DNA of 38,422 bases from Azovibrio restrictus (lineage in GTDB: Bacteria; Bacteroidota; Bacteroidia; Chitinophagales; Chitinophagaceae). Below are positions 9,288-23,641 of the stretch, one piece after another; position 1 is the stretch's first letter, and each line of letters starts with the position of its first letter. The DNA lies in assembly GCA_029255605.1 (NCBI GenBank), contig JANLJF010000042.1, forward strand, positions 34,692-73,113. Reading direction: 5' to 3'. The position numbers and the translations under genes are program-made. The notes below the pieces were generated by a model that was not told the DNA's origin, searched no databases, and worked only from the letters and a program-made list of their open reading frames with translations.

Positions 9288-11468
9288 TTATTTTACCCTG
9301 CTGCCTGGTTTTCCTACTTCAGATTCAGGATCAGCCTCGCTGTCTTCGTTCATGCTCTCATCCTGTATCAGGTTTTTAGACTGTTCGTCCATATTACCAG
9401 GTTTAGCACTGTTGTACAGTATGCGGCGTGTAGGCACATCCGTTACGATACGGAATTCTGTACGACGGTTCAGCTGGCGGCCTGTTGGGTTATCTTTACC
9501 ATTATTTGCTGTATTAGAAGCAGCTGGCATAGATTCACCGAAACCTTTAGCTATCATACGGCTTTGTTCGATGCCCGCACCTACCAGGTAATCTATCACT
9601 GCTTGTGCACGACGCTCAGAAAGTGCTTTGTTGTATGCATCTGTACCTTTCGAATCGGTGAAAGCATAAACCTCTACAGTAAATGAAGGGTTATCTTTCA
9701 GGAAAGATGACAGAGAATCCAGAGAAGCTACAGACTCAGGACGCAGCGTTGCTTTGTCATAGTCGTAGTACACATTGCTTACTGCGAAGGTATATACCGG
9801 AGTTATTTCATCCATATATATAGTAACGCTTACAGTATCATCCGGATCAGTACGTTTTACATCCATTGTATTTACAGAAGCACGTGTAGAAGCAAAACCT
9901 TGTTTATCGCCTGTGAAAACATAAGACTTACCACGTCCGATGTTGAAGCCGAAATTACCGTCTGCAGAGTTGAATGTTTTCAGGTCACCTGTTTGGTCTA
10001 CCATTTTCACCACCACTTCAGTCATCGGCTGTTGCGATTTACGGTCGATAACTTTACCCAGTACTACCAGCTTAGGCTCGTACTGTATACGCCAGATGTC
10101 ATCGCAACATGTAGGGTTTTTCAGTGCTATAGAACCTACACGGTTTGATACTACATAAGCATCCGGTTTACCAAGAGGGTCTTTTACAAAATACAGCTCA
10201 TCTGCCGCAGAGTTGATTGGGTAACCCAGGTTCGTCAGGTTAGTATAACGAGAAGGACCGCCATCAGCTGAGTAGATATCGAAACCACCCATAGTAGCCC
10301 AACCGTTAGATGCAAAGTATAATTTATTGATGCGGCTATCGTAGTAAGGCGTTTGCTCGTCTTTTTCTGTATTGATTTGCTTACCTGCGTTTTGCGGACG
10401 GCGGTAAGTATTGTTGCGGGGATCGATAACTGAATACCAGATATCATAACCGCCACGGCTTTGCAAAGAACGGTTTGAAGAGAAGAACAGTACCTCTTTT
10501 TTGCCCACTTTAGCGCAATAAGGTTGCGTGTTAGAACCACCTTCGTTTATACCTTCACCCAGTAGTTCCGGCTCACCCCATTTAGCTTTCTCAAATTTTG
10601 AAACGTATATTTTACAGATCACTTTCAGAGAATCTTCTTCAGCACATTTTGTGAAGTAGAACCTATCACCACCCGGGCTATAGCTACCGTTACCAACGTG
10701 TGCTTTATTGGTATTAAAACCACCATCCCTGAATTCCAGAGGCCATTGGAAAGAATCAACACGGTCTACATAAGCTTGCTTATGAGACACCATGAAGCGC
10801 GACATATATTCATCACGGTCTTTTTTATTGATCTCTACAGGATTGTTCTGACGCATAGTAGAGAACAGCAACGCACTGTCGCCCAAAGGCAATGGCGCAG
10901 ACTCTGTATAGGCACTGTTTACGTTAGGCCCTGCGTTCAGGATGGTTACAGCTTCCGGATTCTTAATAGAATTCATAGCCATATTAGCGCCTTCAATTTC
11001 ACGCTGTGCCTGTTTCTTCAGTTTCTTGAAGGTTTTAGGGTTATCAGCAATGAATTTGTTGAAAGCTGCGATAGCGTCGTCATAACGGCCCTGCTGTTTC
11101 AGCATGATACCGCTTTTGAATATCGCTTCAGGATACAGCTTTGAAGACATAGCATACACTTCTGCATAATAGTTTGCAGCCGGAGCGTAGTCACGTGTCA
11201 TCCAGTAACACTCAGCAAGCTGATACGTAAGGTACGGATTACGCTCGTCCTCCTGTTTCAGTTGTTGATAATATTCAATGGCGTTGAAGTAACTACCTTC
11301 TTTGAAGAGGCCATCAGCCCAACGTAATTTTTTATAGTAAGGAAGCTTCGATACCGGATCGTTAGCCTTGTTTCTGTACTTTTCTTTACGTTGCTGCTGT
11401 GCATTAGCATCAAATTGAATAGTAACTAGAACCGTTGCAAGGATGAGGAGCAGCCAATTTTTTCTCAT
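9288..11468 (-). CDS. OmpA-family protein with TPR and PD40 repeats (PorE-like)
   Basis: This 726-residue envelope protein has four parts after its signal peptide (1-24, ending ANA-Q). TPR-like helices (about 45-165) come first. A WD40-like PD40 beta-propeller (about 190-435) follows, with FYFTKCAEEDS, VLFFSSNRSLQSRGGYDIW and LYFASNGWATMGGFDIYS repeats. Next is a carboxypeptidase-regulatory-like beta domain (about 458-535). The C-terminal OmpA domain contains YYDYDKATLRPES, FTDSKGTDAYNKALSERRA and RRTEFRIV, with the Asp and Arg that hold peptidoglycan. The architecture is that of PorE-like proteins, which pair with PorP/SprF and tether outer-membrane T9SS components to the cell wall. The partner gene is 114 bases upstream on the same strand. 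Confidence 0.92.
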   Translation of the reverse strand: MRKNWLLLILATVLVTIQFDANAQQQRKEKYRNKANDPVSKLPYYKKLRWADGLFKEGSYFNAIEYYQQLKQEDERNPYLTYQLAECYWMTRDYAPAANYYAEVYAMSSKLYPEAIFKSGIMLKQQGRYDDAIAAFNKFIADNPKTFKKLKKQAQREIEGANMAMNSIKNPEAVTILNAGPNVNSAYTESAPLPLGDSALLFSTMRQNNPVEINKKDRDEYMSRFMVSHKQAYVDRVDSFQWPLEFRDGGFNTNKAHVGNGSYSPGGDRFYFTKCAEEDSLKVICKIYVSKFEKAKWGEPELLGEGINEGGSNTQPYCAKVGKKEVLFFSSNRSLQSRGGYDIWYSVIDPRNNTYRRPQNAGKQINTEKDEQTPYYDSRINKLYFASNGWATMGGFDIYSADGGPSRYTNLTNLGYPINSAADELYFVKDPLGKPDAYVVSNRVGSIALKNPTCCDDIWRIQYEPKLVVLGKVIDRKSQQPMTEVVVKMVDQTGDLKTFNSADGNFGFNIGRGKSYVFTGDKQGFASTRASVNTMDVKRTDPDDTVSVTIYMDEITPVYTFAVSNVYYDYDKATLRPESVASLDSLSSFLKDNPSFTVEVYAFTDSKGTDAYNKALSERRAQAVIDYLVGAGIEQSRMIAKGFGESMPAASNTANNGKDNPTGRQLNRRTEFRIVTDVPTRRILYNSAKPGNMDEQSKNLIQDESMNEDSEADPESEVGKPGSRVK

Positions 11469-11474
11469 GTTAGC

Positions 11475-11494
11475 GAGCGTTGTTGAGCGTTGTT
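11475..11494. repeat. Two tandem 10-bp copies in the OmpA gene leader
   Basis: GAGCGTTGTT occurs twice, back to back, starting 7 bases upstream of the OmpA/PD40 start codon at 11468. On the transcript it reads AACAACGCTC twice. A one-mismatch -7 box (TACTTTTA, 11510-11503) lies just upstream, so the repeats would be in the 5' leader. Confidence 0.6.
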
Positions 11495-11523
11495 AATGGG
11501 TATAAAAGTATAAATTGCTTTAA

Positions 11524-11567
11524 AAAAAAGAAAGGGCTTTAAAAAATTTTTTTGCCCTTTCTTTTTT
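11524..11567 (-). terminator. Terminator between porP-like and OmpA genes
   Basis: The GAAAGGGC arm (11530-11537) pairs with GCCCTTTC (11554-11561). The pairing extends through the A and T runs outside and through AAAAAA/TTTTTT inside, and a T-run follows on the minus strand. It lies 16 bases past the PorP/SprF stop, so the OmpA gene is probably expressed from its own promoter or by read-through. Confidence 0.85.
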
Positions 11568-11582
11568 GTTATGTTTTCCTTA

Positions 11583-12623
11583 TTAGAAGCGCGAGCAAGG
11601 ATAGATCAGCTTACGTGCAAAATCAATCGGGTCGGGCGCTGTGTAGATCAGTGAAATTTCAAAACCACCATTACCGTTCGATGCCGTTTTCAGGTTGGAT
11701 GTGTTGTAGTCGTAGCTAACACCCACACGCAGGCCTTTAAATTCTAAACCGGCATTGATCATTACAGCATCGCTGTTGCGGTAGTAGCCACCCAGGAATA
11801 CCGCTGTAGTGAAGTTGCGGAACTCGGGGTTACCTACTATCAGGTGAAATTCGTTACCTGCTACTACTTCTGTAGCGGTAGACTGTGTTTGGTACAGGAA
11901 TGCAGGACGCAGGCTGAAAGTTTCGCTCAGGTAAGCTATAGCACCTACTTGTGCCGTATAGCGCATACCCAGGCCTACTTCGCTATTGCGTTTTTTCAGC
12001 AGCGACTCCTGTGGTTGGTTCAGGTTGTTGGCACCAACACCCAGGGTATAGCCAAAATTAGAACCTATACTGTGTGCCCATGCGATACCCGCGTTGATGG
12101 TAGCATAAGACACTTTATTATTATTGCCTTCGCCAGATGTACCGGGCTCAAAGCTGCCATTGTTAAATTCGTTAGGAAAGTACAGTTTCGTCAGGTCGAT
12201 GCTCTTTTGCGTGTATCCACCCTGGAAGCCTACCGAAAGCACTTTATCCTGGTTACTGCCCAGGAATTTGTGATAGGCTACTGAAGCCAGTGCCGACAGG
12301 TTAGACAGGTTGCCATCACCAGCACGGTCGTTATACAGCTGTATACCACCAGCCAGGTAATCGTCTATCGTCAGGTCGCTAACAATCGGAGCGTCTACAG
12401 ATACTGCATATGTTTTGAACGGCGATGTTACACTCCTCCATTGGTCACGGTAGATAGCTGTAGCACGCCACTGTCCGCTGAAGTTGCCGGTAAAGGCCGG
12501 GTTTATCACCAACGGTGCACCTTTGAACTGCGTAAAGTGAATGTCTTGCGCCTTAGCGGTTTGTACAGTAAGTGCTAACGCAGCTAAGAGGCTTACTCGG
12601 CTGATTGTATTTTTCATCGTCAT
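11583..12623 (-). CDS. PorP/SprF-family type IX secretion membrane protein
   Basis: The protein has 346 residues. A signal peptide ends at AKAQ, followed directly by the PorP/SprF family opening DIHFTQFKGAPLVINPAFTGNFSGQWRATAIYRDQW. The rest is a predicted outer-membrane beta-barrel of alternating aromatic strands, ending in Phe as barrels usually do. Family members are T9SS accessory barrels that bind PorE-like OmpA proteins and help attach certain cargo. Multiple paralogues per genome are usual, so this need not be the core porP. Two ATGs lie two codons apart (12623 and 12617). The first is better placed relative to an AAGG at about 11 bases. Confidence 0.93.
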   Translation of the reverse strand: MTMKNTISRVSLLAALALTVQTAKAQDIHFTQFKGAPLVINPAFTGNFSGQWRATAIYRDQWRSVTSPFKTYAVSVDAPIVSDLTIDDYLAGGIQLYNDRAGDGNLSNLSALASVAYHKFLGSNQDKVLSVGFQGGYTQKSIDLTKLYFPNEFNNGSFEPGTSGEGNNNKVSYATINAGIAWAHSIGSNFGYTLGVGANNLNQPQESLLKKRNSEVGLGMRYTAQVGAIAYLSETFSLRPAFLYQTQSTATEVVAGNEFHLIVGNPEFRNFTTAVFLGGYYRNSDAVMINAGLEFKGLRVGVSYDYNTSNLKTASNGNGGFEISLIYTAPDPIDFARKLIYPCSRF

Positions 12624-13016
12624 GATATTGTTAACCTTAATTATTGTTTTCTTTTTGTTTTTGAGGCGATTTTAACCTTTTGTTACACAATTCATTTTTC
12701 GCACAACGGTTCAAAATACGCAAATATTTCAAAGTTGCAATGCCCATCTCTATTATTTTTTAATCCGTACTACGCTCAAAAATATCTGTACTATCCGTCA
12801 ATACTCACTTTGGGCTATGCATGTATTGTTTAGACGGGAAATAAAATGGCAGGGTTGGTTTTTATAACCGGTTCTTTTTTAAACCCTTCAAATAATGAAA
12901 TAAACCCATGCTTTTACCGGCCATTCCGCAGCAAAAACATAACAGAAACTTCCCTTCCGTTTCCTCGCCTCTTACTTTGATGTATTAAATTGTACTTTTG
13001 CCGCCTATTGCCAACT
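12624..13016. promoter_or_regulatory. Divergent promoter region of PorP/SprF gene and ftsK
   Basis: No gene is seen in this 393-base stretch. On the plus strand TACTTTTG (12993-13000) is an exact -7 box 16 bases before the ftsK ATG. On the minus strand TATTTTTG (12784-12777) is an exact box that would give the PorP/SprF transcript a leader of about 150 bases. Neither has a well-spaced TTG. The octamer palindrome AACCGGTT is at 12866-12873. Confidence 0.55.
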
Positions 13017-15599
13017 ATGGCCAAAAATTCAACTAAAGACACTAAAAAGGCTCCCAAACAACAGGAAACGCCCATTGCACCGCAGGTTATTATAGACCGT
13101 CGTAAGCAATGGAGGCTGGGCTTGGGCATATTTTGCCTGCTTTCAGGCATTTTCATCACTATTTCCATCATCAGCTACTTCTTCAACTGGACGGTTGATT
13201 ACAGTAATGTAGACGGGCTCACCTTCAAAACGCTGCTTTCCGGTCAGGTAACGGCCCAGAACTGGGGCGGGCGCCTGGGTGCAGCGCTATCGCACGCGCT
13301 GGTATGGAAAGGTGTCGGCATCGCATCGCTGGTAATAGGCCTCTGGGTAGGCTCTATCGGCCTCAACCTGATATATGGCAAACGGGTAGTGCCTGTAATG
13401 CGCTACCTGCGCTGGTTATCGCTGCTGTTATTATTAGTGGCGCCTATCCTTGCTTACCTGATGCCGAATGCGGAATTTCCCTACGGCGGCGCATTGGGCA
13501 ACGAGGCCATCAGCTATATGAATGGCTTTTTCGGTTATGGCGGCACGGGTATGATACTGCTGGCCGCTACCTGCTTTGTAGCATTTGTAGTATTTGCACT
13601 GGATATTTCTCCCTTGCTGCGTCGCGCTAAGCGCACAGCACAGGCCGTTGCCAACCTGATGCCTACCCCTGTAAAGGTGAATGCGCAGGAAGATGCAACC
13701 GAAGAAAATGATGAAGAAACACCTGCCGAAGCACCTGTTTTAAAAACAGTAAAAACAGAAGGTGGCGACTTTATAAAACCCATATTGGTAGACGAAGAAA
13801 CAGGCGAGGTGCACGATTGGAATATGTCGTTGGTAGATAAGGGCGCACCGCATGCCAATGTGCTGAACACCACACCTGAGCCTGCTTTAGCGCTGCCCGA
13901 AGAAGAAGAGCTTTATGAAGAAGAAATAGAAGAGGAAGAAGAAGAGCCCGTTGCGGAAATGGAACTGGAAGTGCCGGAAGCTCCCAAAAAATCAAAACTG
14001 CCGGAAACACCGGAACTGGATATAGAAATCATTCAACAGGAGGAAGAGCCTGCTGTGATAGCGCATGGTGGCCACATCAGCCTGGAAGATGATGAACGGT
14101 ATGCACCCGAACTGGACCTGCCCAGCTACAAATTCCCCACGCTCGACCTGCTGGAAGACCGCAGCCAGGAAACCATTACGCTGGATAAAGAAGAACTGGA
14201 AAAAAACAAGAACCAGATCATCCAGACCCTGCGCAGCTTTAGTATAGAAATTACCCGCATCAGCGCCACGGTAGGCCCTACCGTTACGCTGTATGAAATA
14301 GTGCCTGCCGAAGGGGTGCGCATCTCTAAAATACGCAACCTGGAAGATGATATTGCTCTGAGCCTTGCAGCCCTCGGCATCCGTATCATAGCGCCTATTC
14401 CGGGCCGTGGAACGATAGGTATCGAGGTGCCCAATACCAATAAGCAGATCGTTTCGATGCGCAGCATCCTTTCCAGCGAAAAGTTTGCAAAATCGAACAT
14501 GAGCCTGCCCATAGCTTTGGGTAAAAAGATAGATAACGAGAACTATATAGTAGATCTCGCCACTATGCCCCACTTGCTGATGGCGGGTGCTACCGGCCAG
14601 GGTAAATCGGTTGGTATCAATGCCATCCTCGTATCGCTGTTATATAAAAAACACCCATCGCAACTGAAGTTTGTGATGATAGACCCTAAGAAGGTTGAGC
14701 TATCTATCTATCGCACTATCGAAAAGCACTTCCTGGCAAAGTTGCCCAATGAGGAAGAGGCTATCATTACCGATACCAAGAAAGTGATATACACCCTCAA
14801 TGCCCTGTGTATTGAGATGGACAACCGCTACGAACTGCTGAAAGAAGCAGGCGCGCGAAACATAAAAGAGTACAACGAAAAGTTCATCAACCGCAAGCTG
14901 AACCCGCAGCGCGGCCACAAATACCTGCCTTTCATAGTGCTGGTGATAGATGAGTTTGCCGACCTGATAATGACGGCGGGCAAAGAGGTAGAAATGCCGA
15001 TAGCGCGCCTGGCGCAGCTGGCACGTGCCATAGGCATCCACCTGATAATAGCCACACAGCGCCCGTCGGTGAATGTGATTACAGGTACCATCAAGGCCAA
15101 CTTCCCGGGCCGTATTGCCTTTAAGGTATCGGCCAAGGTCGATTCGCGCACCATCCTCGATGCCGGCGGTGCCGAGCAGCTGATAGGCCGCGGCGATATG
15201 CTGGTATCGCATGGCAGCGAACTGCTGCGCCTGCAGTGTGCCTTTGTAGATACGCCGGAGGTAGAACGCATTGTAGATTTCATTGGCAGCCAGCGCGGCT
15301 ACCCTTCTGCTTTCGAGCTGCCTGAATATGAGGGCGAAGAAGGCTATAATGATAAGATAGTAGACCTTACCAACCGCGATAAACTATTTGAAGACTGCGC
15401 CAAAACCGTGGTGCAAACCCAAAGCGGCAGCACTTCTATGCTGCAGCGCCGCTACAACCTGGGCTACAACCGCGCCGGCCGCATTATGGACCAGCTGGAA
15501 GCTGCAGGCATTGTGGGCCCCAGCATGGGCAGCAAGCCGCGCGATGTGTTATTTAAAACCGAAGCCGAGTTGGAACAATTTTTAAGTACACTCTATTAA
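13017..15599 (+). CDS. ftsK: DNA translocase FtsK/SpoIIIE
   Basis: FtsK pumps chromosome ends away from the closing septum and helps resolve dimers. The 860-residue protein has four hydrophobic segments in its first ~190 residues and then an acidic, Glu-rich linker (about 220-360). The motor follows, with Walker A GATGQGKSVG (from residue 524) and Walker B VLVIDEFAD (Asp645). ATQRPSVNVITGTIKANFPGRIAF follows as in the family, and a C-terminal winged-helix gamma domain (MLQRRYNLGYNRAGRIMDQLE) ends the protein. The open frame begins at a TTG at 12990. That codon overlaps the -7 box TACTTTTG (12993-13000), so the ATG at 13017 (MAKNSTKD) is used. lolA follows 60 bases later. Confidence 0.97.
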   Translation: MAKNSTKDTKKAPKQQETPIAPQVIIDRRKQWRLGLGIFCLLSGIFITISIISYFFNWTVDYSNVDGLTFKTLLSGQVTAQNWGGRLGAALSHALVWKGVGIASLVIGLWVGSIGLNLIYGKRVVPVMRYLRWLSLLLLLVAPILAYLMPNAEFPYGGALGNEAISYMNGFFGYGGTGMILLAATCFVAFVVFALDISPLLRRAKRTAQAVANLMPTPVKVNAQEDATEENDEETPAEAPVLKTVKTEGGDFIKPILVDEETGEVHDWNMSLVDKGAPHANVLNTTPEPALALPEEEELYEEEIEEEEEEPVAEMELEVPEAPKKSKLPETPELDIEIIQQEEEPAVIAHGGHISLEDDERYAPELDLPSYKFPTLDLLEDRSQETITLDKEELEKNKNQIIQTLRSFSIEITRISATVGPTVTLYEIVPAEGVRISKIRNLEDDIALSLAALGIRIIAPIPGRGTIGIEVPNTNKQIVSMRSILSSEKFAKSNMSLPIALGKKIDNENYIVDLATMPHLLMAGATGQGKSVGINAILVSLLYKKHPSQLKFVMIDPKKVELSIYRTIEKHFLAKLPNEEEAIITDTKKVIYTLNALCIEMDNRYELLKEAGARNIKEYNEKFINRKLNPQRGHKYLPFIVLVIDEFADLIMTAGKEVEMPIARLAQLARAIGIHLIIATQRPSVNVITGTIKANFPGRIAFKVSAKVDSRTILDAGGAEQLIGRGDMLVSHGSELLRLQCAFVDTPEVERIVDFIGSQRGYPSAFELPEYEGEEGYNDKIVDLTNRDKLFEDCAKTVVQTQSGSTSMLQRRYNLGYNRAGRIMDQLEAAGIVGPSMGSKPRDVLFKTEAELEQFLSTLY

Positions 15600-15659
15600 A
15601 CCTGTCAACATATTATTTGTCTAAAGGTTATCCATCATTAAAATTTCTAACAAGAGAAG

Positions 15660-16307
15660 ATGAAAAAATTACTGGGTTTAAGTTTAGTGGCCGTTATGGC
15701 ATTGGTACAACCAGCTGCGGCACAAACAGATGCCAAAGCCAAAAGCATACTGGAAGCAGTAAGCAAGAAAGTGAACGGGCTGAAATCGCTGAAGGCCAAC
15801 TTTGCGCTGCACCTGAACGGTGGCGGCGGCAAGGTGAAGGAAACAAAGAAGGGCACCTTCTTCATGAAAGGGCCTAAATACCGTGTAGAACTGGCAGGCC
15901 AGCAAATCATTTGCGACAATAAAACGGTGTGGACGTATATGAAAGAGACCAACGAGGTGCAGGTGAGCAATTACAACCCTAACGAGCAAACCATTTCTCC
16001 GGCCAAACTGTTTACCAATTTTTACGATAAGGAGTACAACTATAAATATGCAGGCACCCGCACCGTAGCCGGCAAAAGCTGCAACATTATAGAAATGACG
16101 CCTACCAACAAAAGCAAACAATTCAGCAAGGTAGAACTGGCGATAGACAAGAGCAACACCATAGTGGGTGGCAATATATGGGAGAAGAACGGCAACAAGT
16201 ACCAGTACGATGTAAGCGGCTTTACGCCCAATGCACCGGTGGCCGATGCCCTCTTTACCTTCGATGCTAAGAAATACCCCGGTGTAGAGGTGGTAGACCT
16301 TCGATAA
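15660..16307 (+). CDS. lolA: Outer-membrane lipoprotein carrier LolA
   Basis: LolA ferries lipoproteins across the periplasm to the outer membrane. The 215-residue protein has a signal peptide (1-21, ending AAAQ) and the LolA-type beta fold: LKSLKANFALHL, GTFFMKGPKYRVEL, DNKTVWTYMKETNEVQVSNY, and FDAKKYPGVEVVDLR at the end. It directly follows ftsK, an order also common elsewhere in bacteria, and is probably read from the same transcript. A good terminator lies 25 bases past its stop. Confidence 0.93.
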   Translation: MKKLLGLSLVAVMALVQPAAAQTDAKAKSILEAVSKKVNGLKSLKANFALHLNGGGGKVKETKKGTFFMKGPKYRVELAGQQIICDNKTVWTYMKETNEVQVSNYNPNEQTISPAKLFTNFYDKEYNYKYAGTRTVAGKSCNIIEMTPTNKSKQFSKVELAIDKSNTIVGGNIWEKNGNKYQYDVSGFTPNAPVADALFTFDAKKYPGVEVVDLR

Positions 16308-16332
16308 GATACAAAAGCACATGTAAATATTA

Positions 16333-16354
16333 AAGGCGGGACATATCCCGCCTT
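16333..16354 (+). terminator. Terminator of ftsK-lolA
   Basis: AAGGCGGGA (16333-16341) and TCCCGCCTT (16346-16354) form a perfect 9-bp stem with loop CATA, followed by A and a run of eight T on the plus strand. Confidence 0.92.
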
Positions 16355-16373
16355 ATTTTTTTGCTTGTTAGTG

Positions 16374-16598
16374 CTATAGCTTATGTGCGTAATTATCGCG
16401 CACATGCTGGTTGATGTAGGTAGTGAGCCCCCTGCCCTTTTCAGCCAGCCGCTTCATTTGTTCCACCTGCTCCCTGCCCGGCGCGGTATGGTCATACACA
16501 TACACCCCGCCATCTGTAAACATGACGGTGATAGAATGTTCACCTATCTCATAGGCTTTGACACCTGCTTTTCGGGATATGTTTTTGTAGGGGCGCAT
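16374..16598 (-). CDS. Small KTSC-like protein
   Basis: This 74-residue protein has the pattern of a KTSC-like domain: SITVMFTDGGVYVYD (two beta strands with the F..G..Y.Y core), then a helix (REQVEQMKRLAEKGRGL), then TYINQHVRDNYA. The family has no settled function. It starts at an ATG; no clear TAnnTTTG box is seen in the 84 bases between it and the PHP-ATPase gene. It lies downstream of that gene on the same strand, so it could be read from the same transcript. Composition is like the core genome rather than like the PHP-ATPase. Confidence 0.75.
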   Translation of the reverse strand: MRPYKNISRKAGVKAYEIGEHSITVMFTDGGVYVYDHTAPGREQVEQMKRLAEKGRGLTTYINQHVRDNYAHKL

Positions 16599-16682
16599 GG
16601 GTTATACTTATACTAATCTACGCTTGTGTAAGAACTTAATAAAACAAACGCAGTGCTCCATCCGATGTTTACCTCGACCTCG

Positions 16683-19472
16683 TTATCTATCGCTTACTTT
16701 GTATCTCATGGATCTCATTTCAAAAGCTTCAGGCCCCCCTTCCATAATATTGCAAATTGATTTTTTTATACTATTATCTTCAATGCATCCTGCTTGTTTT
16801 GCTTCTATATGCTTAGTTTCTGAATCCATAACGATTATATGTTCACTGTCACCATTAACGGGAATATTAGCATTATGCGTCACGCAAATTATTTGACGAC
16901 ACTCTTTTGTCTTTCTTAATTGTTCAACAACTAAATCATAAATTAAATTATTATCGAGATCATCTTCAGGTTGGTCTAATATAAGTGGCGTAGTACCTTG
17001 ACATAATATTAAAGTCAATATCGCTGCAGTTTTTTGACCTGCCGATGCATTTGACAATTCTTTCCACTGATTTGATGAGGTTTTGTATTCGAGCTTGATT
17101 TTATCCTCAGGAAAAAGAATACCAAAACAGTCTATTTGTTCAGAACTTAAACCTAGTATTCTAGAATTAAATTTCGCGTAGAACTGAGTACTAGTACCGT
17201 TGAAAACATTTTGGATTGCTGTTACAATTTTATCGTTATTACTCTCTACACTTTCTCCAGTTATACTCCACGTTTTTACTAAAGTATCTATATCTGCATC
17301 GAAAACACCATAGTCAATATTTATATTTTGCCGTAGTTGATCTTCCAAATTATCAATATCTCTACACATCTCAACTTTTGCTCTGACATTAACATCCTTT
17401 AATAGTTCATTTAAAAACTTCTTCCTGCGTTCTGTGATTGAAATTCTTTTATCAATATACTGTTGCCTTAAAGATTGTTTTTCTTCTTGTTTTTTCACAA
17501 TTACTTGCTCGGTTTCTGAAATCGTAAATAATTCATCTTGCATATTTCTTAATTGCGAAATATCATCTTCTACTTGTTCAATTTCGAATGCCCCCGATTC
17601 CGACAACTCTTGTTTTTTCCTTTCGAATTCTTTTTCACAATTCAAAAATTCTATTTTCCAGTCGCTATCTTGAATTTCACTATTAAATTCTTTTGAAATT
17701 TGCAGATATTCACTTTTTAATTTTTGTAGTGAGCTCTTAACTTTTGCCACCTTTTCATTAGCCGCTTCTATCATTTTTGATAACTTGGCTTTGTGATCTT
17801 CACTAATATCATCGATGTTTATTTCAACCGATACAGCCTTTTCAAGTTCCGTAAAAACTTCACTTTTCTCTTCAATGTGTATAACTAACCCATTTAGAAC
17901 TTTAGAGTCTTTTTGATATACATCTATATTATGAAGCTCTGTTTCGATTCCACTAGCTTTATATCTATCTATTCTTCCACTTATATCGACTATTTGTGCA
18001 TTAACAATACCCTTATTTTCGACTAGTAATTTTAAAGTTCGCAATTCAGCAGATTTTTCTAAATATTGTCGTTCGATTAAACCTAAATCTTTCTTTAAAA
18101 TTGCTATTTCTGAATTCGAATCATCAATACGATCTCGTAAAGAATTTAGGTTTGTAGCTATTTCGTAAATTTGTTTTTGAGAGAAAATATCAAAGTTAAA
18201 AAAGCTTATTGTGTCCTCTTGAAGCTCTTCTTCAAAACCTTGCGCGTTTATTTTGAGTATTTTTACGTCTTTAGAGTTTTGCAACTGTTGCATCCTAAGA
18301 ATATACTCTTCTCCTTTTCTGGTGATATAAATTTCTATTTTACAGTTATTCTTTAATACACCTTGATTAGATGAATCTTTTAGCTTAAAAAAATTCTTGA
18401 ATTCATTAATAACAGTCGGCAATGAAGCAAGCTCATTCTCCTTTGAAAATACCCCACGTATAAAATGAAGTATAGATGATTTCCCACTTCCCCTTCCACC
18501 GATAATTGTATTCATTTGAGGACCAAATTCTATAGTCAAAGGGGTACTATTTGATCTAGATATTTCTGTACCCATAATTACTATTTTATTGAACCATACA
18601 TCGGGCTTTGTATATGGCTTTCCTTTGCAAACAAAATCATTTTTTATCCTGAACTTGGGAAGTAATAATGCATGTCTTAGACTCTCCAAACTAGGTGTTT
18701 TATCCATCTTAATCCAACTATATCTTCTCCCAATACCCCACAAACCATGCTTTGAATCTTTTTCAGCATGTGGGTTATCAGAAAAAGTTAAAATTGCTTT
18801 CCCATACTTAATAGCCTGAACGACTACTGAACGCCAATCTTTTAGTCGATCTTCCTTAATAGTGTATTGCGCGGGAGATACTGCTTCTTTATTATAGTAT
18901 TTATTTATTTTTTCTAGCGCATATGTTTTGTTGTAGCTATTGTTATCAACTAACAATTCCTCGTGTACTACTTGTACGCCTAGAAACAGGTTTTTATTAA
19001 ATATTTGATCTCTAAGGGTATTTGCAACTTGGCAAAGTCCATTGTATTCATCAATATGTGCTGGTATACACAACGCTCCTTTCTTAATCGCTAATTCCAT
19101 CACTTCTTCGACACTTAAGCTTGAATGGGCGTCTTGCTCGCCAAATTTTCTTCGTTCAATTCCTGTTAATGTGATAAAATCTTCAACCTCTTGAGTTGTA
19201 ATATGCATATCGAACAACACCAACAAATGCACTTTAGAATCACTACAGGTAATTTCTACACCAGGAAAGACAAAAATTTTTTTTATCGCAGCTACTTCTT
19301 TTATTCTATCTATCCATTCAGCAGTATTATGATCTGTGACTGCCACACAATTTAATCCCTTTCGTTCCGCTTCTTCTATCCACTGTTCCGGTGTTACAGT
19401 GGTATCCTTAAAACATTTACTTGCAGGAGTATGTAGATGCAAATCGCATTTAAACCATCTTGTTCCAACCAT
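16683..19472 (-). CDS. PHP-domain phosphoesterase fused to an SMC/RecF-like ATPase (Ppl/TrlF-like)
   Basis: The protein has 929 residues. The N-terminal PHP domain (1-~260) carries FKCDLHLHTP (His12, His14), VAVTDHN (Asp47, His48), GVEITCSD (Glu73), His82, IPAH (His139) and SDNPH (Asp232, His235), a full set of metal ligands for a phosphoesterase or nuclease. The ATPase follows: Walker A GGRGSGKSS (325-333), a long coiled-coil-rich middle (~440-690), signature NASAGQK (808-814), Walker B PLILDQPEDDLDN and switch histidine THNANIPVNGD (His866). This is the architecture of the TrlF-family AAA-like ATPases and of the single-gene anti-phage candidate Ppl. Activity on nucleic acid is inferred. The gene is far AT-richer than its neighbours. 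The frame reaches a TTG at 19553, but the ATG at 19472 follows its promoter. Confidence 0.92.
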   Translation of the reverse strand: MVGTRWFKCDLHLHTPASKCFKDTTVTPEQWIEEAERKGLNCVAVTDHNTAEWIDRIKEVAAIKKIFVFPGVEITCSDSKVHLLVLFDMHITTQEVEDFITLTGIERRKFGEQDAHSSLSVEEVMELAIKKGALCIPAHIDEYNGLCQVANTLRDQIFNKNLFLGVQVVHEELLVDNNSYNKTYALEKINKYYNKEAVSPAQYTIKEDRLKDWRSVVVQAIKYGKAILTFSDNPHAEKDSKHGLWGIGRRYSWIKMDKTPSLESLRHALLLPKFRIKNDFVCKGKPYTKPDVWFNKIVIMGTEISRSNSTPLTIEFGPQMNTIIGGRGSGKSSILHFIRGVFSKENELASLPTVINEFKNFFKLKDSSNQGVLKNNCKIEIYITRKGEEYILRMQQLQNSKDVKILKINAQGFEEELQEDTISFFNFDIFSQKQIYEIATNLNSLRDRIDDSNSEIAILKKDLGLIERQYLEKSAELRTLKLLVENKGIVNAQIVDISGRIDRYKASGIETELHNIDVYQKDSKVLNGLVIHIEEKSEVFTELEKAVSVEINIDDISEDHKAKLSKMIEAANEKVAKVKSSLQKLKSEYLQISKEFNSEIQDSDWKIEFLNCEKEFERKKQELSESGAFEIEQVEDDISQLRNMQDELFTISETEQVIVKKQEEKQSLRQQYIDKRISITERRKKFLNELLKDVNVRAKVEMCRDIDNLEDQLRQNINIDYGVFDADIDTLVKTWSITGESVESNNDKIVTAIQNVFNGTSTQFYAKFNSRILGLSSEQIDCFGILFPEDKIKLEYKTSSNQWKELSNASAGQKTAAILTLILCQGTTPLILDQPEDDLDNNLIYDLVVEQLRKTKECRQIICVTHNANIPVNGDSEHIIVMDSETKHIEAKQAGCIEDNSIKKSICNIMEGGPEAFEMRSMRYKVSDR

Positions 19473-19490
19473 ATTGAAATTATTTATTCG

Positions 19491-19520
19491 TAAACATATA
19501 GATTTTAGGCTATTAATCAA
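19491..19520 (-). promoter_or_regulatory. Promoter of the PHP-ATPase gene
   Basis: On the minus strand TTG (19520-19518) is followed after 19 bases by TATGTTTA (19498-19491), a one-mismatch -7 box. It ends 18 bases before the ATG at 19472. It lies downstream of the terminator at 19570-19596, so the gene is insulated from the upstream small gene. Confidence 0.55.
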
Positions 19521-19569
19521 CCGTGAAAAACACCGGTATTTCCTCAAAATCAATGAAGTATAAATAAAA

Positions 19570-19596
19570 AAAGAACCCGCTGCTTGCAGGTTCTTT
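19570..19596 (-). terminator. Terminator of the upstream KTSC-like gene
   Basis: AAAGAAC (19570-19576) pairs with GTTCTTT (19590-19596), and CTGC/GCAG pairs inside. On the minus strand a run of eight T follows. It separates the small gene at 19626-19856 from the PHP-ATPase. Confidence 0.85.
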
Positions 19597-19625
19597 CAAA
19601 CATCTAAGGGTCAGGAAAAACGTTT

Positions 19626-19856
19626 TTAATTGGCGGAGACCTTCGAGTAGCGGAAGCCCGCGGGCAGTATCACCCTTTGCAGGTAGTCTTCCTTACGTTC
19701 GGCAGCCATCAGGGCCGTATAGAGGCTATCGTGCACACCATAGTATTCATAAGTTCCATCGTTGTGTATTACCAGGCGCAGCGTCTTTTGTTCGTCATCA
19801 TACCACACATCCTGTACAGATGCACGGCTATCATTCGTCAGTTTCATACCACCCAT
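19626..19856 (-). CDS. Small KTSC-domain-like protein
   Basis: The 76-residue protein contains VQDVWYDDEQKTLRLVIHND, GTYEYYGVHDSLYTALMAAE and DYLQRVILPAGFRYSKV. These match the KTSC layout of two beta strands with a G.YeY.gV turn, a helix and a final strand. No function is established for the family. The frame is open to 19955, but that part is Gly/Cys-rich and lies in a strongly strand-skewed tract, so it is probably leader. ATGs at 19856 and 19847 (MKLTND) are both possible. It has its own terminator. Confidence 0.7.
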   Translation of the reverse strand: MGGMKLTNDSRASVQDVWYDDEQKTLRLVIHNDGTYEYYGVHDSLYTALMAAERKEDYLQRVILPAGFRYSKVSAN

Positions 19857-20175
19857 ATATAAAAACTTGTGCCAACCCCACATTCCACAAACACATGAAA
19901 ACAAACAACATACAACCCCACCTCCACCCCAACCTTCCACAAAACAGGAAAACACATCATATACTAACCCCTACCTCATTAAGAAATCCATCAACGAACC
20001 ACCGCCCGGCACAACAGTAGCAACCCAGCCCCATCGGCAACCACGACGAACTTTTTCATGGAGCGCAGCGGAATAATTACGCAGTAATTAATTCGTCGGC
20101 TCCTTTTTTGGTTCTTTTTTGGAGAAGCCAAAAAGAACAGACTCGCGCTAAGCAAAAAAGAACAAACTTTATAAA
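19857..20175. other. Gene-free tract: strand-skewed DNA and a probable dispersed repeat
   Basis: No gene is seen in these 319 bases. From about 19861 to 20050 the plus strand is built largely of A and C with few G and T. The minus strand therefore has a G-rich run at 19938-19916 (five or more GG/GGGG groups), a possible quadruplex. From about 20044 to 20165 there is a set of nested inverted repeats with the look of a dispersed intergenic element (listed separately). Confidence 0.6.
20044..20165. repeat. Probable dispersed palindromic repeat element
   Basis: The inverted pairs are CGACGAA (20044-20050) with TTCGTCG (20092-20098); GGAGC (20060-20064) with GCTCC (20099-20103), which crosses the first pair; and ATTAC/GTAAT around GCA near 20076-20088. 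GTTCTTTTTTGG (20111-20122) pairs with CCAAAAAGAAC (20128-20138), with one bulge. The same GTTCTTTTTT also pairs perfectly with AAAAAAGAAC at 20154-20163. Similar elements recur in Bacteroidota intergenic regions from memory; copy number in this genome is unknown. Confidence 0.5.
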
Positions 20176-20601: not shown

Positions 20602-20933
20602 CAAAAACACTAAAATAACGTATATTTGTAGTAATAAAAGGAGATAAGAACTATCTCTTGCCTGGAAATTGTTGCAAAAACCGAAAACCGCATTTTCACA
20701 ACAAAACACAACAAAACACAACAAAAGAAAACTACAAAACCGGAACAAACCGGAACAATTTAGACTGTAAGGCATTCAGCATCAATACACAAAGCGTAAA
20801 CATACCCGTGTTTTCACCGGAGTGTTTAATATATAAGTGAAACATTATCAATGTCGGAAAATATTTATACGAAAAAGTATATAATTCGTATACCATTTTC
20901 ATACATTGCATTACACTTAAAAATTCACCATAT
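20602..20933 (+). promoter_or_regulatory. Long structured leader of the T9SS protein gene
   Basis: TATATTTG (20621-20628) is an exact -7 box. After it come a 6-bp hairpin (GAGATA/TATCTC, 20641-20657), three perfect 10-bp tandem repeats (CACAACAAAA, 20697-20726), two CCGGAACAA copies at the same 10-bp period (20740-20758), and the 8-bp dyad TATACGAA/TTCGTATA (20866-20873 and 20885-20892). A 28-codon reading frame (20851-20937) overlaps the gene's ATG as ATGA. Confidence 0.5.
20697..20726. repeat. Three perfect 10-bp tandem repeats
   Basis: The unit CACAACAAAA occurs three times without mismatch, followed 13 bases later by two copies of CCGGAACAA, also at 10-bp spacing. One turn of B-DNA is about 10.5 bp, so bound proteins would be on one face of the helix. 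Confidence 0.8.
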
Positions 20934-22604
20934 ATGAAAAGCAATGCCACGTTACCAACCGTCAAAAGGCAGCTCCTTTTTACGCTGCTCTCCCTTCTGA
21001 TGCTCAGTTTCACCACACAGGCACAAACATTCTGGACCCCCGTCTCAAACGAAGACAGTTACCCCATAGCCGGCAGCCCGGATATAGGTACTACCACACA
21101 TACATCCTGCTACTCTCTTTCTAACATGGGCTTTTACGGCAGCTCTGAAGACCTGGTCGTTTCCGGGTGGGATGATGCCGGCACACCATCGGGTGTGGCA
21201 TGGCGGCGCCTGGTTACCGGCTCGTTTGGCTCAGTCATCATCGCACAGGGTATCATCCCTTACAATAATGTGCAAGATCTGGAAGTAGGCATATTGCAAT
21301 CCGGTGCAGGCTGGGAAATATATGTAGCCTACTATCTTGGCGGCACCGGCCACATGCTGGATGTATATGACTGGAACCCCGGTGGTGTTACTTTGCTGTA
21401 TTCTATCCCATTATCCGCCACACCGGTTTATGGCCGTATCAGTATGGACTGCCATAAGCTGTATGGATTGGCGCTGGCATGGGAAGATAACGGCATTCAT
21501 AGCATGACAGGCCTTTCGGGCAGCCCTACTACTACCTATGGTGGCGATGTGCTGCTGAATGGTACTAACGGCTATTCGGTGCCCGATGTTGCCTTTACCC
21601 ATACAGGCTCAGGCCTGAATGTGCACTATGTATATCTTAACCAGGCAGGTGGCTACCTTGAAGAATCTTACTACGATTATTTTGCGCTGATGTCTGCACC
21701 TTCCGGCTCCACTATATTGCAGATGGTGGAAGACCAGAATTTCCTTTCCAATGAAAGGAGGTATGCGTATCCTAACATGGATGCACCCGACCACTACAAT
21801 AAAGACAATTGGGCGTACACGTATACGGTAGATAACCAAAACATATCTGTTCGCCTGGTAGATTACTTCAGCAGTATATTCCCCGTTACCAGGGTCGTGA
21901 ACGACAATTCGATTTTACCAAGCGCACCTATCAATAGTAGTAATAACATGTCACCTTTTCTCAGCTACGATCATCATATGACCAGTACCGCCTCTATAAA
22001 CGTAGGCTGGTATTCAACGCAGATGAACCCTATGACTGGTATGGCGGCATCGTACGTGCACCTGCAAATGGACCAATATGGTACCGGCCTGGTAGCCATG
22101 CCTCCTGATTATCATGCCATACCTAATAATCGGGGCAATGCATCCAATACACCTGTATTGTCTTTCAGCAAACAGAATGAGATGTGCCATTATCTGTATA
22201 CCGTGTTCCCTGAAATGGGCTATCAGATGCAGCACAAGTATCACCCATGGAGCACTTCACCCTTCAAAAGCACAGAAACTGCTGCCGTCAATACAGAATG
22301 TGAGCATGATGCAAGGATAGAAGAATTAAGAAGAGCTAAAGCATCTGTAAAGCTGGCAGCATATCCCAACCCGTTTACAGACAGGGTATCGCTGGCTATA
22401 CCTGCTGAATTGCAGACAGAGGAAGCCAATGTGCGCATAGTAGATGTAATGGGCAAACAAGTGGGTAGTTATAACGGTATACTATTGCAAGCCAATAACT
22501 ACCTGGCAGATTTATCCCAAACGCTGCCTCCCGGCAACTACCTGCTAACTGTTGACGCCGGCAATACATGCCATGAAACTATTAAAGTGACAAAATCCAA
22601 ATAG
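20934..22604 (+). CDS. Secreted T9SS cargo protein, function unknown
   Basis: This 556-residue protein has a long positively charged signal peptide (1-31, ending TTQAQ). A repetitive beta-rich body follows, with motifs such as LVVSGWDDAG, WEIYVAYYLGG and LNVHYVYLNQAGG that suggest a propeller-like fold. The C-terminal sorting domain (from about 475) has AAYPNPFTDRVSLAIP and ends NYLLTVDAGNTCHETIKV. Sec export and T9SS secretion are expected. No enzyme motif is seen. It is preceded by a long structured leader and followed by a bidirectional terminator, so it is probably monocistronic. Confidence 0.92.
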   Translation: MKSNATLPTVKRQLLFTLLSLLMLSFTTQAQTFWTPVSNEDSYPIAGSPDIGTTTHTSCYSLSNMGFYGSSEDLVVSGWDDAGTPSGVAWRRLVTGSFGSVIIAQGIIPYNNVQDLEVGILQSGAGWEIYVAYYLGGTGHMLDVYDWNPGGVTLLYSIPLSATPVYGRISMDCHKLYGLALAWEDNGIHSMTGLSGSPTTTYGGDVLLNGTNGYSVPDVAFTHTGSGLNVHYVYLNQAGGYLEESYYDYFALMSAPSGSTILQMVEDQNFLSNERRYAYPNMDAPDHYNKDNWAYTYTVDNQNISVRLVDYFSSIFPVTRVVNDNSILPSAPINSSNNMSPFLSYDHHMTSTASINVGWYSTQMNPMTGMAASYVHLQMDQYGTGLVAMPPDYHAIPNNRGNASNTPVLSFSKQNEMCHYLYTVFPEMGYQMQHKYHPWSTSPFKSTETAAVNTECEHDARIEELRRAKASVKLAAYPNPFTDRVSLAIPAELQTEEANVRIVDVMGKQVGSYNGILLQANNYLADLSQTLPPGNYLLTVDAGNTCHETIKVTKSK

Positions 22605-22629
22605 CTTCCGCATAAGTAAAGTATAAAAC

Positions 22630-22657
22630 AAAGCGGCTACATACCTGTAGCCGCTTT
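22630..22657. terminator. Bidirectional terminator between convergent genes
   Basis: AAAGCGGCTAC (22630-22640) and GTAGCCGCTTT (22647-22657) form a perfect 11-bp stem with a 6-base loop and T-rich tails on both strands. It lies between the T9SS gene stop (22604) and the fabD stop (22675). Confidence 0.92.
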
Positions 22658-22674
22658 TACATATTATATCGCGA

Positions 22675-23556
22675 TTAGTTGATACCCTCTGTAGCAGCCT
22701 CTTTATGTATCTTCTTCACCAAGCCCTGCAGTACATTACCCGGTCCTACCTCTGTAAAGCGGGTAGCGCCATTCTCCACCATCTTCTGCACCGTTTGTGT
22801 CCAGCGCACGGGGGCCGTTAGCTGGGCTACCAGGTTCTGCTTAATATCCGCAGGGGTGATGTATGGATGGGCATCTACGTTTTGGTACACAGGGCAGGTA
22901 GGGTTGGCAAAGTTGGTCGCCATAATAGCGCTTTCCAGTTCTTCCCTTGCAGGCTCCATCAGTGGCGAATGGAAAGCACCACCCACCTGCAGCACCAGGG
23001 CACGCTTGGCACCCGCAGCCTTCATCAGCTCGCAGGCTTTGTTCACGCCCTCTATGCTGCCGCTGATAACCAGCTGGCCGTGGCAGTTATAGTTGGCAGC
23101 TACCACCACCTCATCGGTAATGCCGGCGCATATCTCCTCTACCTTGGCATCTTCCAGGCCCAGTATCGCCGCCATCGTAGATGGGTTGATCTCGCAGGCA
23201 CGCTGCATAGCTGCTGCACGCTTGGCTACCAGGCGCAGGCCATCTTCAAAGCTCAGCACCTTATTAGCCACCAGTGCCGAAAACTCGCCCAGCGAGTGGC
23301 CCGCCACCATATCAGGCTTCAGGTCTGGCGTGGTGAGGAACAGTATGGTAGAATGCAGGAATATAGCAGGTTGGGTTACTTTGGTTTGCTTCAGGTCTTC
23401 ATCGCTACCGCTAAACATGATATCGGTAATGCGGAAACCTAATATTTCGTTGGCTTGCTCAAAGTATTCTTTAGCCAATGTATTTGTCTCGTACAGGTTC
23501 TTGCCCATACCTGAGAATTGTGCGCCCTGCCCAGGAAATACAAATGCATGCTTCAT
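22675..23556 (-). CDS. fabD: Malonyl-CoA:ACP transacylase FabD
   Basis: FabD loads malonyl groups onto acyl carrier protein for fatty-acid elongation. The 293-residue protein begins KHAFVFPGQGAQFSGMG. It has the catalytic serine in GHSLGEF (Ser88), the CoA-carboxylate arginine in AKRAAAMQ (Arg113), and the catalytic histidine in GGAFHSPLM (His196). Length is normal. The frame extends three codons to a TTG at 23565; the ATG at 23556 fits the family start. Only a one-mismatch -7 box (TACTTTCG, 23589-23582) is found upstream. No other fab genes are beside it. Confidence 0.97.
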   Translation of the reverse strand: MKHAFVFPGQGAQFSGMGKNLYETNTLAKEYFEQANEILGFRITDIMFSGSDEDLKQTKVTQPAIFLHSTILFLTTPDLKPDMVAGHSLGEFSALVANKVLSFEDGLRLVAKRAAAMQRACEINPSTMAAILGLEDAKVEEICAGITDEVVVAANYNCHGQLVISGSIEGVNKACELMKAAGAKRALVLQVGGAFHSPLMEPAREELESAIMATNFANPTCPVYQNVDAHPYITPADIKQNLVAQLTAPVRWTQTVQKMVENGATRFTEVGPGNVLQGLVKKIHKEAATEGIN

Positions 23557-23641
23557 AAACTTCAAAGTTGAATTGAGAGCGCGAAAGTAATAAATAACGG
23601 CTTATAAATATCGGTCATACCTATATCAGTCTTTCCATTCG

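Follow-up and report, generated by a model that had tools for sequence, protein, structure and literature searches.

At the centre of this study is a stretch of 38,422 nucleotides deposited as Azovibrio restrictus (assembly GCA_029255605.1, contig JANLJF010000042.1, positions 34,692 to 73,113 of the forward strand) and placed by GTDB in the Chitinophagaceae; we call this whole stretch the window and number its positions from its first letter. On its minus strand, between the core gene lolA and a fabD-like gene, lies one long gene of the TrlF family, within a segment inserted relative to a sister genome, G157. An earlier note on this DNA, made from its letters alone, had described a PHP phosphoesterase joined to a coiled coil and an SMC/RecF-like ATPase, and had suggested that the gene is a horizontally acquired anti-phage system. 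The gene, its parts and the inserted segment are as follows.

16683 to 19472, minus strand: TrlF-family PHP-ATPase of 929 amino acids (aa); NCBIfam NF045780 at 578.7 bits against a cut-off of 350; AlphaFold2 model with a mean pLDDT (predicted local distance difference test) of 90.3
18603 to 19472, minus strand: PHP phosphoesterase region (residues 1 to about 290); Pfam PHP, outer boundary judged from the AlphaFold2 elements
18747 to 18782, minus strand: last PHP motif, S231 to H242, subclade form SDNPx7H; alignment A3, 19 of 55 rows
18477 to 18500, minus strand: Walker A, residues 325 to 332 (GGRGSGKS); alignment A3
17403 to 18113, minus strand: coiled-coil arms, residues 454 to 690; long helices in the AlphaFold2 model
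17031 to 17045, minus strand: ABC/SMC signature, residues 810 to 814 (SAGQK); S810 and G812 invariant in 55 sequences
16965 to 16988, minus strand: Walker B with E836, residues 829 to 836 (PLILDQPE); D833 to E836 invariant in 55 sequences
16875 to 16877, minus strand: switch histidine H866; invariant in 55 sequences
16600 to 19565, no strand: segment inserted relative to G157, 2966 bases, G+C content (GC) 0.327; blastn and GC

The open reading frame (ORF) spans 16683 to 19553 on the minus strand; counted from a TTG it would encode 956 aa, and counted from the ATG at 19472, 929 aa. The start codons of annotated plasmid homologues lie only a few residues from the equivalent point. Residues 3 to 925 of the 929 match positions 2 to 944 of the 944 in the TrlF profile, and the protein is a member of this known family; the novelty lies in the site where its gene is exchanged. 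The earlier note had named TrlF and Ppl side by side; TrlF was confirmed by the profile search, and Ppl was rejected as a family name, since the protein fails the curated cut-off of the Ppl model (NF042955, 373.2 bits against 1000, best stretch residues 242 to 923). The Spaf_1101 model NF045781 was likewise missed (238.8 bits against 475, best stretch residues 558 to 925). Among PADLOC models, judged by E-value without curated cut-offs, the best was again Ppl (314 bits, residues 247 to 923), and no model of the HEC (Hma-embedded candidate) series matched at E 0.001. In Pfam, PHP was found at residues 10 to 143 (36.8 bits, cut-off 26.4) and AAA_23 (312 to 476) and AAA_21 (796 to 870) above their cut-offs, SMC_N remaining below its own (29.8 bits against 40); the resulting order, namely PHP, coiled coil and a split SMC/Rad50-type ATPase head, is the TrlF architecture.

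The AlphaFold2 model (predicted template modelling score, pTM, 0.78) consists of the PHP part, a head split by the long helices of residues 454 to 690, and a C-terminal lobe. Within the first 50 Foldseek matches, the best solved structures are the heads of MukB, condensin, JetABC (Wadjet) and Rad50. The 50 also include two PHP phosphoesterases (3o0f and 3e38) and the AriA-AriB complex; relative to the full query, all 50 have low TM-scores (0.17 to 0.31), as expected of matches to one part. No solved Ppl or TrlF structure is named in the two sequence matches or in these 50 fold matches.

Motif conservation was read from alignment A3, which holds 55 sequences. The canonical PHP phosphoesterase set comprises nine metal ligands. 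All of them had been claimed for this protein, and this is true of eight positions (H12, H14, D47, H48, E73, H82, H139 and D232), kept in 53 to 55 of the 55 rows; the last motif is SDNPx7H in place of DxH, the DxH form being that of most rows and the SDNPx7H form that of 19 rows, the window's included. H235 was rejected as the ninth ligand as it is not conserved; H242 is, with a histidine in that column in 50 of 55 rows. The ATPase half had been described as intact, and it is: Walker A (G325 to S332), Q432, the signature, Walker B with E836, the D-loop and H866 are all present in the window's protein. Walker A, the signature residues S810 and G812, Walker B with E836 and H866 are fully or nearly invariant over the 55 sequences, except S329 (S or T).

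The comparison with G157 delimits the insertion. The two genomes have an identical LolA, and their DNA is 96.6% identical over 11001 to 16599; by blastn, homology stops at 16599, the base beside the start codon of a 74-aa gene, and resumes at 19566, where a terminator-like hairpin is found. Between these junctions there is one long gene, TrlF, whose ORF takes 2790 of the 2966 inserted bases. An empty site had been suggested as the thing to look for here: the gene is indeed absent at the G157 junctions, which hold other candidate defence ATPases rather than nothing. The left border of G157 carries an 810-aa (open-ended) ATPase gene matching PDC-S06 at 402 bits, and the right border, on another contig, a 366-aa (open-ended) ATPase gene matching the AriA and AAA_15 models; synteny suggests that the two contigs meet at this site. 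The TrlF gene looks recently inserted, and the pair, 96.6% identical beside the site and differing in cargo, offers a natural comparison.

The composition of the gene is foreign to its surroundings. The counts of 16, 15 and 33 G+C per 60 bases on which this contrast had first been based were exact on recount, and the proposed computation of GC and codon bias bears it out: GC is 0.327 against a mean of 0.466 (standard deviation 0.026, z = -5.4) in the 28 other window genes longer than 150 codons, and GC at third codon positions (GC3) is 0.245 against a mean of 0.502 (standard deviation 0.052, z = -4.9), the lowest values among those 28 genes being 0.412 and 0.402. The other 14 genus genomes contain no close copy. 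NF045780 is passed in 2 of 15 genus genomes and in none of 14 control genomes; the second genus member, G148, has a distant copy on a different contig and at a different place (L098:3431-6160, minus strand, 544.4 bits, 909 aa, GC 0.33), which resembles the window's protein in pieces only (26% and 37% identity). This G148 gene is AT-rich and flanked by genes of higher GC. Across the family, matches of any kind occur in 15 of 147 genomes, counting the window's own; two of them (G045 and G087) hold full-length copies at 42% identity, the other matches (26 to 45%) being in pieces or partial.

The site itself is framed by the following features.

15660 to 16307, plus strand: lolA, left core gene; NCBIfam LolA1_Flavo at 221.9 bits, cut-off 100; found in 14 of 15 genus genomes
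16333 to 16354, both strands: terminator-like hairpin separating lolA from the 74-aa gene; terminator scan
16374 to 16598, minus strand: 74-aa gene, left border, weakly KTSC-like; G157 copy 91% identical
19569 to 19597, minus strand: terminator-like hairpin upstream of the TrlF gene, at the right junction; 12-pair stem with a T tail
19626 to 19847, minus strand: KTSC-domain gene, right border, given from its ATG (ORF open from 19955); Pfam KTSC at 44.6 bits against a cut-off of 25; G157 copy 97% identical
22675 to 23565, minus strand: fabD-like gene (named from its translation), core gene on the right; all 15 genus genomes have a DNA match

The lolA-fabD interval was compared across 14 genus genomes, the window's included, which represent species rather than strains; G147 (84% complete), in which lolA has no match, was left out. 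An AT-rich ORF was defined as one of at least 150 aa with a GC of at most 0.36, and flanks of up to 38.6 kb per genome served as reference. The intervals contain 97 ORFs, 14 of them AT-rich, against 5 among the 416 of the flanks (odds ratio 13.9, Fisher p 1.7e-7), figures to be read with the GC threshold picked after the data were seen, with ORFs that are not independent, and with long or split intervals in G154, G156 and G159; leaving these three out gives 9 of 40 against 2 of 321. Nine of the 14 genomes (the window's and eight others) have at least one AT-rich ORF in the interval.

Ten of the 14 AT-rich interval ORFs (TrlF and nine others) were scanned against profiles, along with one small neighbouring protein; the scan did not extend to three in G154 and one in G159, to interval ORFs of normal GC, or to the five AT-rich ORFs of the flanks. 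PDC-S06 was matched in G148 (430 bits) as well as in G157, and G153 has an OLD/AriA/GajA-like ORF with an OLD TOPRIM domain. An ORF of G154, 14.7 kb from lolA, has a NACHT domain and matches EruA at 50.9 bits, far under the cut-off of 1000; DUF6119/TIGR04141 was found in G155 and DUF4291 in G152, and neither the 708-aa ORF of G150 nor the 164-aa ORF of G152 has a PADLOC, Pfam or NCBIfam match. G148 and G155 are alike on both flanks (87 to 92% identity), with a clean swap between: a PDC-S06 gene in the former, a 75-aa gene and the DUF6119 gene in the latter, while G152 has neither at that point, so that the site is one of cargo exchange. There are at least two cargo sub-positions, one beside lolA (G150, G152) and one further along (G148, G153, G155).

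The core genes are thus constant and the cargo varied among relatives, and not all of the cargo is defence-like. In our view, the lolA-fabD interval is most likely a chromosomal defence hotspot, judging from these sequence comparisons, with cargo differing between members of the genus; the window, which had been called otherwise housekeeping, holds a variable interval at this point. The site also points to further candidate defence genes, namely the 708-aa ORF of G150 and the DUF6119 and DUF4291 genes.

Taken together, the results support the interpretation of the earlier note, and we favour the reading that this is a horizontally acquired, single-gene TrlF nuclease acting against phages or other mobile DNA and lodged in a lolA-fabD defence hotspot, to which we give a probability of roughly 0.78. 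Its basis is family membership, motifs, the predicted fold, foreign composition, the lack of a close copy in the other genus genomes, and the fact that candidate defence ATPases take its place at these junctions in G157; the gene also combines a mobile, patchy distribution with the company of candidate defence genes. Recombination between conserved flanking sequences is the probable route by which the cassette moved, the insert of 2966 bases being too small to hold an integrase or transposase gene beside TrlF. As for its action, two chains would come together at their SMC/Rad50-like heads when ATP is bound; DNA ends or other abnormal structures formed in infection would be bound by the heads and the coil, and head engagement would allow the PHP domain, which depends on metal, to degrade DNA. 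The protein would, in other words, be an ATPase-gated DNA nuclease similar to Ppl, its trigger being supposed by analogy with Ppl, and the outcome could be decay of phage DNA or arrest of the cell.

One has to keep in mind several points that weigh against this reading. The last PHP motif departs from the common DxH, and the mechanism of Ppl may not carry over given that its curated cut-off was missed. Several homologues of the subclade adjoin host genes (TonB receptor, porin, carbamoyl-phosphate synthase), and 5 of the 14 intervals are without any ORF of at least 150 aa at a GC of at most 0.36, so that the hotspot is unoccupied in some genomes. For Photorhabdus, where a trlF is described, escapees from temperature restriction are reported to have yielded no trlF mutants, in a paper that does not use the word phage (PMC7554251).

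The wider family bears on the most serious alternative. Our scan of species genomes confirmed at least 563 TrlF stretches in many phyla, of which 80 loci were kept. In the open literature, among the papers listed and judged by title and abstract, we recognised no trial of TrlF against phages. The tree, built on 29 selected rows, groups the window's protein with L103, L104 and L105 (100/99 support), then with L106 and L107; its neighbours are copies from Saprospiraceae, Paludibacteraceae and Sphingobacteriales metagenome-assembled genomes, and the two 42% copies from its own family group with Flavobacteriaceae. This conflict between tree and kinship supports horizontal transfer, and the proposal that the gene was acquired in this way stands on it, on the foreign GC and GC3 and on the lack of a close genus copy.

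Gene order was determined for 19 loci of the nearest relatives among the matches listed, with neighbours scanned in all of them save L106, L112, L117, L159 and L174. Restriction or methyltransferase genes accompany TrlF in 8 of the 19. In L103 and L104, a methyltransferase, an AAA_21 ATPase, DUF4276, TrlF and ResIII follow one another in the same direction, and PADLOC names the partners in L104 as MTase_III, HEC-01A, HEC-01B and REase_III; L107 has SNF2, a methyltransferase, TrlF and ResIII, and L105 adjoins the end of a methyltransferase 80% identical to that of L103. L115 and L118 have a methyltransferase, ResIII, TrlF and GmrSD, and L111 and L114 a restriction-helicase gene at most 3 kb away, type I-like in L114. 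The scanned neighbours of L108, L109, L113, L116 and L137 (one to three genes each) are ordinary; a Schlafen/AlbA_2 protein follows TrlF in L116, and L119 lies near a VapE-type gene. The L103 copy (L103:8001-10790, plus strand) has an in-frame stop in its C-terminal part, which denotes a decayed gene or a sequencing error.

In this light, the closest copies would act together with the methyltransferase and restriction subunit of their operon, and the window's gene could be a type III restriction effector that was orphaned when its partners were lost, and that now works alone or is idle; we regard this as a possible but clearly less probable explanation. Four of the five nearest tree rows (L103, L104, L105 and L107) lie in or beside type III operons, and neither the methyltransferase nor the restriction subunit of the operon has a match in the window's genome, and partners elsewhere in it were accordingly rejected; as a control, the methyltransferase query recovered itself from its own genome, whereas the restriction query was run without such a control. 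Against it, L106 (Emticicia), the fifth nearest, has no large ORF of restriction size alongside, by layout only; solo copies occur on plasmids and in a phage; the motifs are still intact; and HEC-01 models match the other two genes in the L104 slot, which suggests independent modules embedded in restriction operons. The operon context remains of value as a testable link of TrlF to methylation-based restriction.

A second alternative is that the gene is the cargo of a mobile element and acts on other plasmids or phages to the benefit of that element, and not in host defence. By tblastn, relatives are present on 1137 of 72,556 plasmid records, of which 833 are typed conjugative and 206 reach a query coverage of 80% or more; phage records with a relative number 9 of 50,697, all of them below that coverage. 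One of these phages, the Peduoviridae member vB_YenM_42.18, carries a relative of 2619 bases between replication-protein and portal genes. TrlF is widespread, with relatives on many conjugative plasmids. We nevertheless find this reading unlikely for the window's copy: its insert is too short to carry genes for integration, replication or transfer as well, and chromosomal core genes flank it.

Still weaker is the idea of a host nuclease for DNA repair or chromosome maintenance in the manner of Mre11-Rad50 or SbcCD. Heads of Rad50, MukB and SMC proteins are among the best fold matches, but the absence of close copies from the 14 other genus genomes, the patchy presence in the family and the foreign composition make it very improbable, and the same distribution and composition disfavour a housekeeping SMC-like gene. 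An assembly or binning artefact is hardly credible here. In its favour, the genome is in 163 contigs and the G157 counterpart of the site is split over two; against it, the contig around the gene is 73 kb long and continues on either side into orthologous sequence, and variation is seen at these two borders in G157 and within the interval in other genomes.

Returning to the putative defence gene in its hotspot, the small genes at its borders deserve a comment. The resemblance of the 74-aa gene to KTSC scores 15 bits, under the cut-off of 25, so that a true KTSC domain was not confirmed. Its family occupies six places in five genus genomes, and the cargos found next to it are TrlF, a PDC-S06-like gene, DUF6119 (in G155, beside a 50% homologue) and, at another locus, an LmuB/PtuB-like pair. 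This pair, in G094 (C1; L241:7034-12318), consists of AT-rich genes, one an LmuB-like ATPase (103 bits), the other weakly PtuB/HNH-like (PtuB, 25 bits). Two of the six places, G094 C2 and G147 C277, have no AT-rich cargo beside the family, which counts against the idea of a border marker; the G147 contig ends about 1.2 kb past the gene. It is a speculative proposal, and rather doubtful, that lolA-fabD is a defence exchange site bordered by KTSC-like genes that serve the exchange or the function of the cargo, and that the SDNPx7H form of TrlF moves freely between type III restriction operons and solo slots.

The gene had also been credited with a promoter of its own and a position between terminators. 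The first found no support, promoter-like matches being at chance level (15 found, 14.5 expected); the second holds upstream, with the hairpin at 19597-19569, and fails downstream, where the scan found no hairpin between TrlF and the 74-aa gene and the next one (16354-16333) lies beyond. The two genes could therefore be co-transcribed. No tRNA, tmRNA or Rfam match reaches the gathering score in the window, and a tRNA attachment site was rejected for lack of any tRNA or tmRNA match.

Other observations concern the neighbourhood of the insertion. A repeat of about 150 bases at about 19980-20140 has many partial copies in the window's genome and in G157, which carries an additional diverged copy at that place; it might be a dispersed element beside the insertion. 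The gene of a 556-aa protein (20934-22604, normal GC) has no match there in G157, whose matches jump from 20770 to 22674 within about 100 bases, making it a second presence/absence gene in the same interval. Elsewhere in the genus, the 708-aa ORF of G150 (L063:4717-6843, minus strand, 29% GC) adjoins lolA, has no match at E 0.01 and is a candidate cargo, and the swap position of G155 (L062:4543-6364, plus strand) holds the DUF6119/TIGR04141 gene, described as 'sporadically distributed', with its 75-aa partner.

Among known systems, the closest characterised relative is Ppl, a single-gene defence of E. coli with the same general architecture; a review (PMC12904381) reports it to be a PHP 3'-5' single-strand exonuclease with an NTPase domain, held back by nucleotides and freed upon nucleotide depletion by phage and the appearance of 3'-OH ends. 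The window's protein misses the Ppl cut-off, its best stretch being mostly outside the PHP part, and it is likewise set apart from Spaf_1101, for which the best stretch covers residues 558 to 925. The name TrlF in NCBIfam presumably comes from the temperature-restricted locus of Photorhabdus, where, according to PMC7554251, trlF forms an operon with trlR and trlG; the order of PHP, coiled coil and ATPase is the same, and the match is full-length and above the cut-off, whereas the window has a single gene with the subclade form of the last PHP motif. With the Hma-embedded candidates (as named in PMC12988326) and other guilt-by-embedding candidates, the link is one of company: the close TrlF copy of L104 shares its type III operon with HEC-01A and HEC-01B matches, TrlF itself matching no HEC model at E 0.001. 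Finally, the core defence hotspots cDHS1 and cDHS2 of Pseudomonas aeruginosa (PMC10250203) are described as core genes that flank immune systems varying among strains. The site in the window is likewise flanked by core genes and varied in its cargo, but the flanks are others (lolA and fabD), each cargo comprises one gene or a few, and the comparison covers just 14 intervals from different species.

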